From Ensifer aridi (GTDB lineage: Bacteria > Pseudomonadota > Alphaproteobacteria > Rhizobiales > Rhizobiaceae): DNA of 64,000 bases. The stretch spans positions 62,001 through 126,000 of the forward strand of contig NZ_LUAV01000004.1 of the NCBI RefSeq assembly GCF_002078505.1, written 5' to 3'. Each line of letters begins with the position of its first letter. The stretch's first letter is position 1. A program made the translations under genes and the position numbers. Below the pieces are notes generated by a model, which searched no databases, was not told where the DNA came from, and was given only the letters and a program-made list of their open reading frames with translations. Below are positions 59,736 to 64,000 of the stretch, one piece after another.

Positions 59736-61010
59736 TCAGGCCCTTTCGCGCGCGACCGCGCGCCAGCCGATGTCGTTGCGGTAGAAGCCGTTCTGCCAGA
59801 CGACGCCACGCAGTGCGGCGTATGCCGCGTCCTTTGCGTCGCTGACGGTCTTTCCCATGGCGGTGACGTTCAGCACACGGCCGCCGGAGGCGACCAGCTT
59901 GCCGTCCTTGATTGCCGTGCCGGCATGGAACACTTTGGTGGTGGCGGCGCATGCGGCAGGCAGCGTCTCGATCGGCGTGTTCTTCTCATAGGTGCCCGGA
60001 TAGCCGCGCGAGGCCATCACCACCGTCAGCGCCACTTCGTCGTGCCATTCGGCTGTCATGCCTGCGAGTGTGCCCGTGGCCGCCGCATAGAGCAGCGGCA
60101 AGAAGTCGCTCTTCATCCGCATCATCAGGACCTGGCATTCCGGGTCGCCGAAACGGACATTGTACTCGATGAGTTCCGGTCCTTTTTCCGTGATCATCAG
60201 GCCGGCGAAGAACACGCCGGTGAAGGGGTGGCCACTGTCGGCCATGCCGCGTACTGTCGGCTCGATGATCTCCTTCATCGTGCGCTCGACCATTTCCGCC
60301 GTCATCACCGGCGCCGGTGAATAGGCGCCCATGCCGCCGGTATTCGGCCCCGTGTCGCCATTGCCGACACGTTTATGATCCTGCGCCGAGGCGAGCGGCA
60401 GCACGGTCTTGCCGTCGCAGAGGCAGAAGAAGCTTGCCTCCTCGCCATCCAGATAGGCTTCGACGACAACTTCCGCGCCGGCTGCGCCGAAAGCGCCGGC
60501 GAAGCACTCGTCGACTGCGGCAAGCGCCTCGTCGAGCGTCATCGCGACGGTCACGCCCTTACCGGCGGCAAGCCCGTCCGCCTTGATGACGATCGGCGCG
60601 CCCTGCTCGCGGACATAGGCCTTGGCGGCTTCAGCATCGGTGAAGCGCCTGTAGGCGCCGGTCGGAATGTCGTATTTGGCGCAGAGATCCTTGGTGAAGC
60701 CTTTCGAGCCTTCGAGTCGGGCTGCCGCTGCCGAAGGTCCAAAGACCGGAATGCCCGCGGCGCGCAGCTCGTCCGCGAGACCCGCGACCAGCGGCCCCTC
60801 CGGACCGACGACGACGAAGTCGATCGCTTGCTCGCGGCAGAAACCAACGACGGCTTCGTGATTTTCAGTATCGAGCGCGACGATCGTCGCCTCTTCGGCT
60901 ATGCCCGGATTGCCGGGTGCGGCATAGAGCGCGGTCAGCTTCGGCGACTGCGCGATCTTCCATGCAAGTGCATGCTCGCGTCCGCCCGATCCGATCAGAA
61001 GAACCTTCAT
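59736..61010 (-). CDS. purD: Phosphoribosylamine-glycine ligase
   Basis: A 424-residue ATP-grasp enzyme of purine synthesis that joins glycine to phosphoribosylamine. Landmarks: N-terminal [64 protein letters not shown] and the metal-binding [13 protein letters not shown]. Length is normal. The start at 61010 (MKVLLIG) is the family start; a codon 15 bp upstream is less likely. Confidence 0.97.
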
Positions 61011-61121
61011 CGCCACCCCCGCCATCAGGAATTGTTGCGCTGCGGTTAGGCGGCAGGGGGGAGAAGGTCAAGGAAAAAGCGGGCGAGGGCGGCAAATTTC
61101 CTGCGCGCCGGCCGCAGGTGG

Positions 61122-63497
61122 TCAGACCTGACGTGCAATCGCTGGCCGGGCGATGACGTCCTCGTTCGAGCTCTCGAAGGGGCGCATGGTTCGGCCGAGC
61201 GCCCAGATCGCGAGGTCCTCGAGCGAAAGCGGCTTGCTGATCAGGTATCCCTGGAAGCGGTCGCAGCCAGCCGCCGTCAGCATCGCGAGCTTCTCCGGGG
61301 TATCGACGCCTTCACCGACGACCGCCATATCCTTCGCATGGCAGAGTGCGACGACCGCCCTGAGAACCGGAAGGGATTGCGAGGCGGTCAGGTTCGATAC
61401 GAGCACCCGGTCGAGCTTGATCGTGTCAGCGGGGTAGTCGATGATCTGTTCGACGGAAGTATAGCCCGCTCCGAAGTCGTCGATCGACAGGCGGAAGCCC
61501 TTCCGCCGCAACTCCTCGATATTCCGGCGCAATTGGTCGCCGACCTTCACCGCGAAGGTTTCCGTGAGTTCGATGTCGATCGATCGCGGATCGAGCCCGT
61601 GTCGTGCCAGGCAATCGGAAAAATAGTCGCTGATCGACCGCGAATGCAGCTCGGCCGAAGAGATGTTGATTGCAAGCACCGTGTCCCGTCCGAAGAGGGC
61701 TTTCAAGTGGTGGCAATCGGACATCGCCTTATCGATGACCCACCAGTCGATCTTGGTGAAGAGCCCGGAGCTCTCCGCGATCGGAACGAATTCGTCCGGC
61801 GTCACATGGCCGAGAACGGGCGAGTGCCAACGCAACAGCGCTTCGCAGCCTGTGACCTCGCCGCGCGCGTTGACGATTGGCATATAAACCAGGCGAAACT
61901 GCTCGTCGGGATCGAGCGAGCGCAGTTCCTCCTGAATCTGCCTCTGCCGGGTGCGCTTGTCGTTGAGCGCGCGCGAGAAGCGAGCGGAGCGGTTCTTACC
62001 GGCGCTTTTCGCCTGATACATGGCCGCGTCGGCATTCGAGATCAGTTCCGCGACTGTGCTCGCATCCTCCGGGCAAACGGCGACGCCGATGCTTGCCGTC
62101 ACCGGATAGCGCTTGCCGGAGAGCTCGAAGCCGCCGGAAAAGAGGGCGAGGATCGCGGCACATAACTCCTGCACGGTGCCGTCGCCCGCTTTCGACCGCA
62201 CGAGCACCGCAAACTCGTCGCCCGAAAGGCGCGCCAAAATGGCCGGCTGATGCCCTTGCTTTCGGGTGATCGCTTCGACGTCATGCGCGATCCGGGCTGC
62301 GAGCGCTTTCAAGAGCTCGTCGCCCACATCGTGACCATGCTTGTCGTTGACGAATTTGAAGTTATCGATGTCGATGAACAACAGGCTGCACTTTTCGCCG
62401 GATGCAATAGCCTCTTGGACTGCGCCCGCCGCAAGCATGTTGAAGTGCGCGCGGTTGCTGATGCCCGTCAACGCATCGGTCCAGGAACTCCGCTGCAGAA
62501 GCTGGAGGGACTGAACGGACTGACGATGCAGTTCGCCGATATTTCGGGTCAGACGGCCGATTTCTCCCGCCTCGTGCACCTCGGCGATTTCCTCGCGCGC
62601 GCCTGCCATGACCGCCATGACATTGGCGTCGAGTGTCGCAATCGGCCCGGTAATGAAGCGGCGGATGAGTACGATGAGGAGCCAGATGGAGAAGAGACTC
62701 ATGGCGACGGCGCCGAGCGCCAGCAGCACTTTCTGACGCAGCATCAATGCATCGAAATGCGCGTCCGAAGCAGTCAGCGTCGCATGAAACGAGGGGCCGA
62801 GCGGCACGCTCGCCGAAAGATCGTCGGTAGCGGCAAGCGGCCAAGGTTGAAGGATGACGTCGGCGCCATATTCCCTCTCGAGAGCGGCCCGCAATCTGAG
62901 GAAACGGTCGGGCTGCAGCGCCACCTGCATCAGAAGAGCGTTCGCCTTGTTGCTGGGTGCCGGCCGGCCAAAGGTGATCGGATCGACGAATTGGGAATAG
63001 ACTATCCTCGGCCGGTCGCTGGCGTCGCCGATATAGGTCCAGTCGCCGAGTCTTGAGCCGCTGATCAGTTGCCGCGCGAGATCGAGCTGCGCTCGATCGA
63101 TTTCGGCAAAAGGATCCCAGCTGTTTTCGAAGTAGTACTCGGCTTCCAGTTTCGCGTCGAGAATGGCGAAGGAGACGAAGCCGGCAGGATCGTCCGACAG
63201 CGACTTCACGCTTTCCTGCAGTCGCACGCCGAGCGCGTTGGCGCGGTATTTCTTGTCCGTTTCGGAGACGTATTGGCGCAGCGCATTACCGTTCAACAGC
63301 GCATTGAGGAAGCTTTTGCTGCGCCGGACCTCGTTCTGAAAGACGGCGGCAGCATGCTCGACCCGTTGTGAAAGCTTGGCGTGCTCCAGTGCGCGGATCG
63401 ACCGACTCTGTGCGACGTGGACCGAGAGGGCTGCAAGAAGATAGCCCGCCAACACGACCGGAAAGATAAGGATGAGCGCACGCTTGCCGAGGGTCAC
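61122..63497 (-). CDS. Membrane GGDEF-EAL protein with periplasmic sensor, MbaA-like
   Basis: A 791-residue c-di-GMP enzyme. Transmembrane helix 1 (about 7-25), a periplasmic domain of about 230 residues, helix 2 (about 257-278), a HAMP-like linker (about 280-332), GGDEF (about 338-500) with intact SGDEF, and EAL (about 515-765) with CEALLRW, INISSAEL, ELTET, DDFGAG, KLDRVLV, GEGVD and FQGYLISKP. Both activities are possible. Its ATG overlaps by 4 bp the stop of an upstream PotD-like binding-protein gene. Binding protein plus two-helix GGDEF-EAL is the architecture of the Vibrio NspS-MbaA polyamine sensor; the analogy is inference. Confidence 0.9.
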   Translation of the reverse strand: MTLGKRALILIFPVVLAGYLLAALSVHVAQSRSIRALEHAKLSQRVEHAAAVFQNEVRRSKSFLNALLNGNALRQYVSETDKKYRANALGVRLQESVKSLSDDPAGFVSFAILDAKLEAEYYFENSWDPFAEIDRAQLDLARQLISGSRLGDWTYIGDASDRPRIVYSQFVDPITFGRPAPSNKANALLMQVALQPDRFLRLRAALEREYGADVILQPWPLAATDDLSASVPLGPSFHATLTASDAHFDALMLRQKVLLALGAVAMSLFSIWLLIVLIRRFITGPIATLDANVMAVMAGAREEIAEVHEAGEIGRLTRNIGELHRQSVQSLQLLQRSSWTDALTGISNRAHFNMLAAGAVQEAIASGEKCSLLFIDIDNFKFVNDKHGHDVGDELLKALAARIAHDVEAITRKQGHQPAILARLSGDEFAVLVRSKAGDGTVQELCAAILALFSGGFELSGKRYPVTASIGVAVCPEDASTVAELISNADAAMYQAKSAGKNRSARFSRALNDKRTRQRQIQEELRSLDPDEQFRLVYMPIVNARGEVTGCEALLRWHSPVLGHVTPDEFVPIAESSGLFTKIDWWVIDKAMSDCHHLKALFGRDTVLAINISSAELHSRSISDYFSDCLARHGLDPRSIDIELTETFAVKVGDQLRRNIEELRRKGFRLSIDDFGAGYTSVEQIIDYPADTIKLDRVLVSNLTASQSLPVLRAVVALCHAKDMAVVGEGVDTPEKLAMLTAAGCDRFQGYLISKPLSLEDLAIWALGRTMRPFESSNEDVIARPAIARQV

Positions 63498-64000
63498 TGG
63501 AAATTCGCCAACGTGTTGATGATGCGACGGCGGGCCTGTATCGACTGGATGGACAGTTCTCGCTGATGCTGGTTTTTCGCCATGATTTCGGGGGGCGGAT
63601 AGATTTCCGGATCGGAGCGCATCTCCTCGGGAAGGAGCTTGAGCGCCGCGCTGCTTGGGGTCGGCATGTTCAGGGCGAGCGCATTGGCGGCGGCCGCCTC
63701 CGGCGAGCCGATGAAATTCAGGAACTCAAGTGCCCGCTGCTTGTGGGGCGAATGCGCAACGACGGAAAAGCAGTCGAGCCACGACAAAGTGCCTTCCTTC
63801 GGGACCGAATAGCGCCACAGCCCTGCCTTGCCGACCTTGCTGTTGAGTACGTGCTGGTCGCCGCTGTAGCCTAGCGCCAAATGGATGTCCTTGCCCTTCG
63901 CCGGATCCTGGATCGAGGTGACGACATAGTCATAGGTCAGCACGGACGGTGCCTGCGCCCTCAAGAGCTCAAAGGCAGCCTTCAGGGTTGCCGTGTCGTC
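63494..64000 (-). CDS. Periplasmic solute-binding protein, PotD-like (incomplete, 5' end outside the window)
   Basis: The C-terminal 168 codons of a gene that continues past the window edge; the N-terminus, including any signal peptide, is not visible. The segments LKAAFELLRAQAPSVLTYDY, VPKEGTLSWLDCFSVVAHSP and KQRALEFLNFIGSPEAAAAN are typical of spermidine/putrescine-binding (PotD/SBP_bac_8-like) proteins, where the Trp-Leu-Asp segment contributes to polyamine binding. No permease or ATPase gene follows; instead its stop overlaps the start of the GGDEF-EAL gene, which argues for a sensory rather than a transport role. Confidence 0.82.
   Translation of the reverse strand, partial: DDTATLKAAFELLRAQAPSVLTYDYVVTSIQDPAKGKDIHLALGYSGDQHVLNSKVGKAGLWRYSVPKEGTLSWLDCFSVVAHSPHKQRALEFLNFIGSPEAAAANALALNMPTPSSAALKLLPEEMRSDPEIYPPPEIMAKNQHQRELSIQSIQARRRIINTLANFQ

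Follow-up and report, generated by a model that had tools for sequence, protein, structure and literature searches.

Periplasmic solute-binding proteins acting on a GGDEF-EAL receptor are known from the ScrB-ScrC pair of Vibrio parahaemolyticus, whose signal differs from that of the NspS-MbaA pairs considered here. In Vibrio cholerae, NspS-MbaA was reported to comprise a binding-protein gene upstream of, and overlapping, a gene for a transmembrane-periplasmic-transmembrane-GGDEF-EAL protein with the motif SGDEF (PMC8079147, PMC8967002), and the overlapping pair nspS (smc00991) and mbaA (smc00992) of Sinorhizobium meliloti 1021 was described in 2023 (PMC9993111). A pair of the same arrangement was found in a stretch of 64,000 nucleotides of Ensifer aridi (contig NZ_LUAV01000004.1, positions 62,001 to 126,000; hereafter the window), and its genes are very probably the orthologues of S. 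meliloti nspS-mbaA, encoding a likely two-protein polyamine-type receptor that would shift the cyclic di-GMP (c-di-GMP) output of a GGDEF-EAL enzyme. The initial annotation, made from the window alone, had proposed a rhizobial counterpart of the Vibrio pair; the analogy holds, and such a pair had already been published for S. meliloti (PMC9993111). The window pair is therefore correctly recognised but already explained in print as an orthologue, one more rhizobial carrier of the described polyamine-to-c-di-GMP switch, whereas the wider family picture and a cysteine pair in NspS go beyond PMC9993111 and PMC12095868.

The MbaA of S. meliloti was reported to contain SGDEF and EAL motifs with the RxxD site missing, and the gene order was described as largely conserved in Sinorhizobium and Ensifer (PMC9993111). 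In the same work, biofilm, exopolysaccharide (EPS) and motility of wild types and nspS mutants were found to change with several polyamines, with an nspS-dependent response to putrescine and spermine in strain 1021; the mbaA mutants were reported to make more EPS, and the nspS mutant was described as amounting to a double mutant of nspS and mbaA. The gene fsr (smc00990) was placed immediately upstream of nspS (PMC12095868, 2025). The V. cholerae proteins were given about 31-32% identity to those of S. meliloti and a gene overlap of 16 bp (PMC9993111), and their opposite responses to norspermidine and spermidine were not seen in S. meliloti; V. cholerae MbaA contains EVL where the window protein contains EAL.

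The pair in the window, with the part of nspS that lies beyond it, was found to contain the following features.

61122..63497, minus strand: mbaA orthologue, a membrane GGDEF-EAL protein of 791 residues with a GTG start, SGDEF at residues 425-429 and the EAL domain at residues 531-756
62598..63497, minus strand: N-terminal sensor part of MbaA, residues 1-300 (transmembrane helix 1, periplasmic domain, transmembrane helix 2)
63494..63497, minus strand: GTGA overlap, with the nspS stop TGA inside the mbaA GTG start
63494..64000, minus strand: 3′ part of the nspS orthologue (168 of 346 codons), the 5′ part lying beyond the window
L013:2995-4035, minus strand: full nspS, 346 residues, on the same contig (C4, up to base 126534)

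The gene directly upstream of mbaA was found to be nspS, and the two share four bases, as the initial annotation had read from the stop of the binding-protein gene and the start of the GGDEF-EAL gene; the 5′ part that it lacked was retrieved from the same contig and completes nspS. The same gene order was found in S. meliloti 4H41 (L015), with identities of 85% for MbaA and 84% for NspS, and the window pair was assigned to the S. meliloti orthologues because of this order and identity. The likeness to the S. meliloti system (PMC9993111) extends to the two genes, the overlap, fsr upstream, SGDEF with EAL and the missing RxxD, and the difference lies in a separate Sinorhizobium-like genome of 6.6 Mb with the identities given. 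Two Sinorhizobium database proteins were found to be already named polyamine sensor NspS.

The spacing of the two genes was compared in 80 loci, comprising the own locus and 79 listed relatives (out of at least 79) found by MbaA similarity; as likeness to the window proteins was the basis of all sequence groups, close relatives are over-represented in them. Exactly 4 shared bases were found in 40 loci and 14 in 27, followed by other spacings in three (L065 and L066, in which the mbaA frame appears interrupted, and L079, whose spacing is counted from the first of two binding proteins). The overlap is not due to chance, because it recurs across loci, and two unrelated adjacent genes were rejected as an explanation, the overlap and gene order being conserved. 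The overlaps of 3, 13 and 16 bp given in PMC9993111 correspond to 4, 14 and 17 shared bases in the present counting, the last in one Vibrio (L079).

The rhizobial loci (L014-L066 and L068) were found to fall into two overlap classes, one with 4 shared bases that mostly adjoins purD and one with 14 that is mostly of Shinella and Mycoplana, with purD not detected; the exceptions L051 and L053 contained 4 shared bases, with purD not detected. Shinella pollutisoli carries two NspS-MbaA pairs (L041, L064), and L064 together with L063 (Ectorhizobium quercum) represents a second, more distant rhizobial lineage with an ATG start and 14 shared bases. In Vibrio sp. D404a (L079:2313-4422), mbaA was found to be preceded by a tandem of two NspS-type genes, each of which encodes the cysteine pair described below.

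In the N terminus of MbaA, a periplasmic domain of about 230 residues was found to be flanked by two membrane helices, as had been claimed, with the GGDEF and EAL domains behind them; the helices were placed at residues 2-68 and 245-297, with strands between, by a structure model and not by a membrane-helix predictor. Pfam matches of 1.5e-60 for EAL and 4.9e-37 for GGDEF were obtained in the scan of window open reading frames (ORFs), and the matches listed in fold searches with the full 791-residue model were GGDEF- and EAL-type structures. The key catalytic residues, which the initial annotation took to be kept in both domains, were found to be regular in EAL (EALLRW), whereas the cyclase motif is SGDEF and not GGDEF, without an RxxD inhibition site at the usual distance. 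In the 80 MbaA rows the cyclase motif was SGDEF in 67, AGDEF in 6 and without an xGDEF match in 7, with RxxD in 0 of 73, and the phosphodiesterase motif was EALLRW in 61, EVLLRW in 18 and EVLIRW in one. For the periplasmic part of the window MbaA, a Pfam scan with E up to 1 gave no family, and Pfam HAMP had no match at 0.001 in this protein, where a putative HAMP was called with Prosite in PMC9993111. In a search of the own genome with E up to 0.01, the profile of the MbaA N terminus matched at this gene alone.

The NspS protein matched Pfam SBP_bac_8 with 2.7e-13 for the 168-residue window part and 3.5e-29 for the full 346 residues, and its N terminus was signal-peptide-like by eye. The closest among solved sequences were putrescine- and spermidine-binding proteins and the nearest solved folds were PotD, PotF, SpuD and SpuE, followed by the conservation of the aromatic and acidic pocket residues of polyamine proteins. 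The fold and most pocket residues are thus shared with the PotD/PotF transporter proteins, yet the NCBIfam transporter cut-offs were not reached (110 against 582 bits for PotD, 106 against 636 bits for PotF). The neighbours of nspS-mbaA in the own locus were found to be MFS, AraC, UbiA, DUF6101 and purD genes, and neighbour and profile scans found no ATP-binding cassette (ABC) permease or ATPase gene beside nspS in this locus. An ordinary ABC operon, by which the reading of the initial annotation would have been refuted, was rejected accordingly, and the claim that no transporter gene lies on this side stood for ABC genes but not for the fsr-like gene of major facilitator superfamily (MFS) exporter type directly upstream.

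A profile of 38 mbaA-linked NspS proteins was found to match in 185 of 398 genomes of the phylum at 1e-25, with a gap between 227.9 and 202.3 bits among the matches listed. Below the gap, PotG-, PotH- or PotI-like genes adjoined the binding protein in 18 of the 20 regions chosen; in the other two, L149 and L160, it had no detectable ABC neighbour, and both were kept in the transporter set. Among the 48 binding proteins of loci L096-L143, those of L096-L123 contained the cysteine pair and an adjacent GGDEF-EAL-profile match (28/28), and the pair was absent in all 20 of L124-L143. In a tree of 67 rows, which 25 of the 38 rows of the A2 alignment entered, three groups each formed one side of a branch, namely 31 mbaA-linked (100/97), 13 Magnetococcales-type (100/97) and 23 transporter-type (100/99.9) proteins. 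As the tree is unrooted, a sister relation of the first two groups requires a root on the transporter side; L171 was excluded from the A4 alignment and the tree because its reading frame starts too far upstream. An NspS match at 1e-60 was found in 20 of 199 sampled genomes of the window's family, the own genome included, and the system is therefore patchy.

Both C113 and C255 (window numbering) were found to be conserved in all 71 NspS rows of MbaA loci, as well as in each of 120 close homologues (the best 120 of 219, taken without regard to genomic context), and all 38 aligned NspS proteins contained this pair and no other cysteine past the predicted signal peptide position. The pair was absent in all 22 transporter-type proteins and in three of three other binding proteins of the own genome, as well as in all 14 proteins of L164-L177, six of which contained C255 alone. 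The residue Y203 was conserved in 71/71 NspS and 14/14 Magnetococcales-type rows, whereas serine was present in 21 of the 22 transporter-type rows. Being invariant and the sole cysteines of the periplasmic protein, C113 and C255 probably form a disulfide, and would mark the c-di-GMP branch and perhaps set the shape by which NspS docks on MbaA. Cysteine and disulfide terms were absent from the main texts of PMC9993111, PMC8079147 and PMC8967002, and a literature search on NspS/MbaA with cysteine gave nothing on topic by title, with the papers likeliest to treat NspS residues lying outside that search; the novelty of the pair is claimed no further. Sensor and transporter proteins often bear like names in databases, and the tree branch, the cysteine pair and the overlap with the receptor gene together provide a sequence rule for telling them apart.

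In the proposed mechanism, NspS, a periplasmic binding protein of polyamine type, would bind to the periplasmic domain of MbaA and thereby shift MbaA between breakdown and synthesis of c-di-GMP, and the 4-base overlap would couple the production of the two proteins. What the sequences show is the gene order, the overlap, the domains, the kept pocket and motif residues, the lack of ABC genes found beside the pair and the place of NspS in the tree apart from transporters. The phosphodiesterase activity of MbaA presumably dominates, because the published S. meliloti mbaA mutants were reported to make more EPS.

For rhizobia, the polyamine as ligand and the contact between NspS and MbaA are what we infer, and several observations weigh against this reading. 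In S. meliloti Rm8530, norspermidine raised biofilm in both the wild type and the nspS mutant (PMC9993111), and the dependence on nspS is therefore partial. Mutagenesis had shown seven residues of Vibrio NspS to be necessary, and only three of them were reported to be kept or similar in S. meliloti (PMC9993111); when V. cholerae numbering was carried over to the window protein by a plain offset, the positions of the contact residues D90 and F131 were found to vary across the family, and the rows of a second receptor type (L122, L123, L179, L180) contained S for D56 and E for D254. Of the 80 loci, 11 of Vibrio type and the Shinella locus L064 were found to contain ATPase-type ABC matches, 12 in all, and an apparent sugar-type ABC set is present on the other strand in L085; none of these matches falls in a locus with the 4-base overlap. 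Lastly, mbaA was found without NspS beside it in 10 of the 79 relatives, all Vibrio-type (L076, L077, L078, L081, L084, L085, L088, L089, L091 and L092). The gene before mbaA was pheA-like by eye in L076, L078 and L092, and in the nine of these genomes searched (all but that of L085) an NspS-type protein, judged by score, was absent in four and encoded elsewhere in five.

The ligand itself is the point at which the strongest alternative enters. A binding-protein-driven c-di-GMP receptor for a ligand other than a polyamine, such as gamma-aminobutyrate (GABA), 5-aminovalerate or a plant-derived amine, is unlikely. In its favour, PotD-like SBP_bac_8 proteins of Pseudomonas aeruginosa that were predicted to bind spermidine or putrescine were reported to prefer GABA or 5-aminovalerate (PMC11113362), and the reciprocal polyamine response of Vibrio has no like in S. 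meliloti as described in PMC9993111. The kept pocket residues and nearest folds of NspS and the published response of strain 1021 argue for a polyamine instead.

The other genes around the pair bear on the next alternative, and those with assigned positions were as follows.

L013:4137-5282, minus strand (the strand of nspS): fsr-like MFS gene, about 100 bases upstream of nspS
L013:5436-6263, divergent from the fsr-like gene: AraC-type regulator
59736..61025, minus strand: purD, the downstream neighbour, outside the function and present in 39 of 54 rhizobial loci

Also in this locus, a 769-residue protein with five DUF1217 matches was found at L013:8572-10881. That fsr, nspS and mbaA form one stress or efflux unit, in which NspS-MbaA reports a substrate of the Fsr exporter, is improbable. 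The closeness and common strand of the fsr-like gene, its presence in 32 of the 54 rhizobial loci and the opposite biofilm and motility of fsr and nspS mutants (PMC12095868) speak for such a unit, but nspS-mbaA was found without an fsr match within the stretch examined in the remaining 22, including every locus titled Shinella or Mycoplana, and polyamine levels were reported to be unchanged in the fsr mutant (PMC12095868); with the fsr-like gene in only part of the loci, the joint unit was dropped. It is more doubtful still, to the point of being hardly credible, that NspS serves an ABC polyamine transporter encoded elsewhere and overlaps mbaA incidentally: the own genome does contain, in L093, genes for an ATPase and two permeases behind that of a PotF-type binding protein, but this set has its own PotF, from which NspS stands apart in the tree, the score of NspS is far under the NCBIfam cut-off, and the adjacent GGDEF-EAL-profile match was present in every one of the L096-L123 loci, which were found by the NspS profile.

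Relatives of the NspS-MbaA receptor with other outputs were found in L164-L177, where 12 of the 14 regions carry a gene for a histidine kinase, a hybrid kinase or a SpoIIE phosphatase next to that of the NspS-related binding protein; nine of the 14 were tied to database proteins from Magnetococcales, including Candidatus Magnetaquicoccus inordinatus. Exactly 4 bases were shared with a HAMP-HisKA-HATPase kinase gene in L165, L167, L169, L172, L176 and L177, and a dCache-SpoIIE gene followed in L164, L168 and L173 with gaps of about 300, 27 and 13 bases between the listed ORFs. A hybrid kinase was found alongside the binding protein in L174, L171 and, divergently, L170, and the partner in L166 starts within 4 shared bases and runs off the contig, outside the Pfam scan; no receptor was seen beside the binding protein of L175. 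Eleven of the 12 scanned receptors (all but L167) matched dCache_1 at 0.001, with L164, L169 and L171 above the Pfam cut-off. These binding proteins resemble NspS in being nearer to it than to transporter proteins, given a root on the transporter side, in the related receptor N terminus and in the 4-base kinase overlap, and they differ in the output and in lacking the cysteine pair.

The MbaA N terminus (23 rows) was found to match the N termini of the Magnetococcales receptors (10 rows) with hhalign at 97.1% and 5e-11 over 291 columns, and the periplasmic part alone at 68.4%; control runs with reversed, shuffled and unrelated sequences did not exceed 1.6%, L005 being of insufficient length for inclusion. 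With Z = 1000, the periplasmic-only profile of MbaA matched L176 at 0.024 and the other five of the six kinases at no worse than 0.0013. Against a simple one-family picture, all three SpoIIE partners stayed out of its reach (0.51 to 4.3), as did L171, L166 and L170, and the N-terminal profile did not reach the GGDEF-EAL receptors of L179 and L180 (0.3 to 0.6). These two, with L122 and L123, represent a second, divergent type of GGDEF-EAL receptor, seen in one family (f53) and paired with a binding protein of its own that has the two cysteines. Pfam dCache_1 was weak in the N termini of the MbaA family itself (3 of 23 members, best 0.0048). That the MbaA sensor is a divergent dCache domain is probable but short of certain, because the periplasmic-only profile reaches the kinases weakly and misses the SpoIIE partners, and the Pfam match is weak.

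From the N-terminal match and the kinase and SpoIIE neighbours, NspS-MbaA is probably one output of a wider co-receptor module whose sensor half is more general. The fuller picture is an output-swapping co-receptor family, in which a dedicated binding protein split from the transporters would act with a divergent dCache receptor on GGDEF-EAL in alpha- and gammaproteobacteria and on histidine kinases, hybrid phosphorelay kinases or SpoIIE in Magnetococcales, with C113/C255 marking the c-di-GMP branch; we hold this picture to be evenly poised between right and wrong. Polyamine-type sensing may thus be wired to several outputs, because related binding proteins adjoin kinases and phosphatases in magnetotactic bacteria. 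Binding-protein-driven kinases as such are known (PMC11113362), and a literature search (NspS/MbaA, dCache, polyamine, solute-binding, kinase, Magnetococcales), judged by title and the start of the abstract, gave no report of such pairs among the papers listed. The binding proteins of L164-L177 were found to bear the database name of ABC transporter proteins, and a FIST gene was found to follow in L165.

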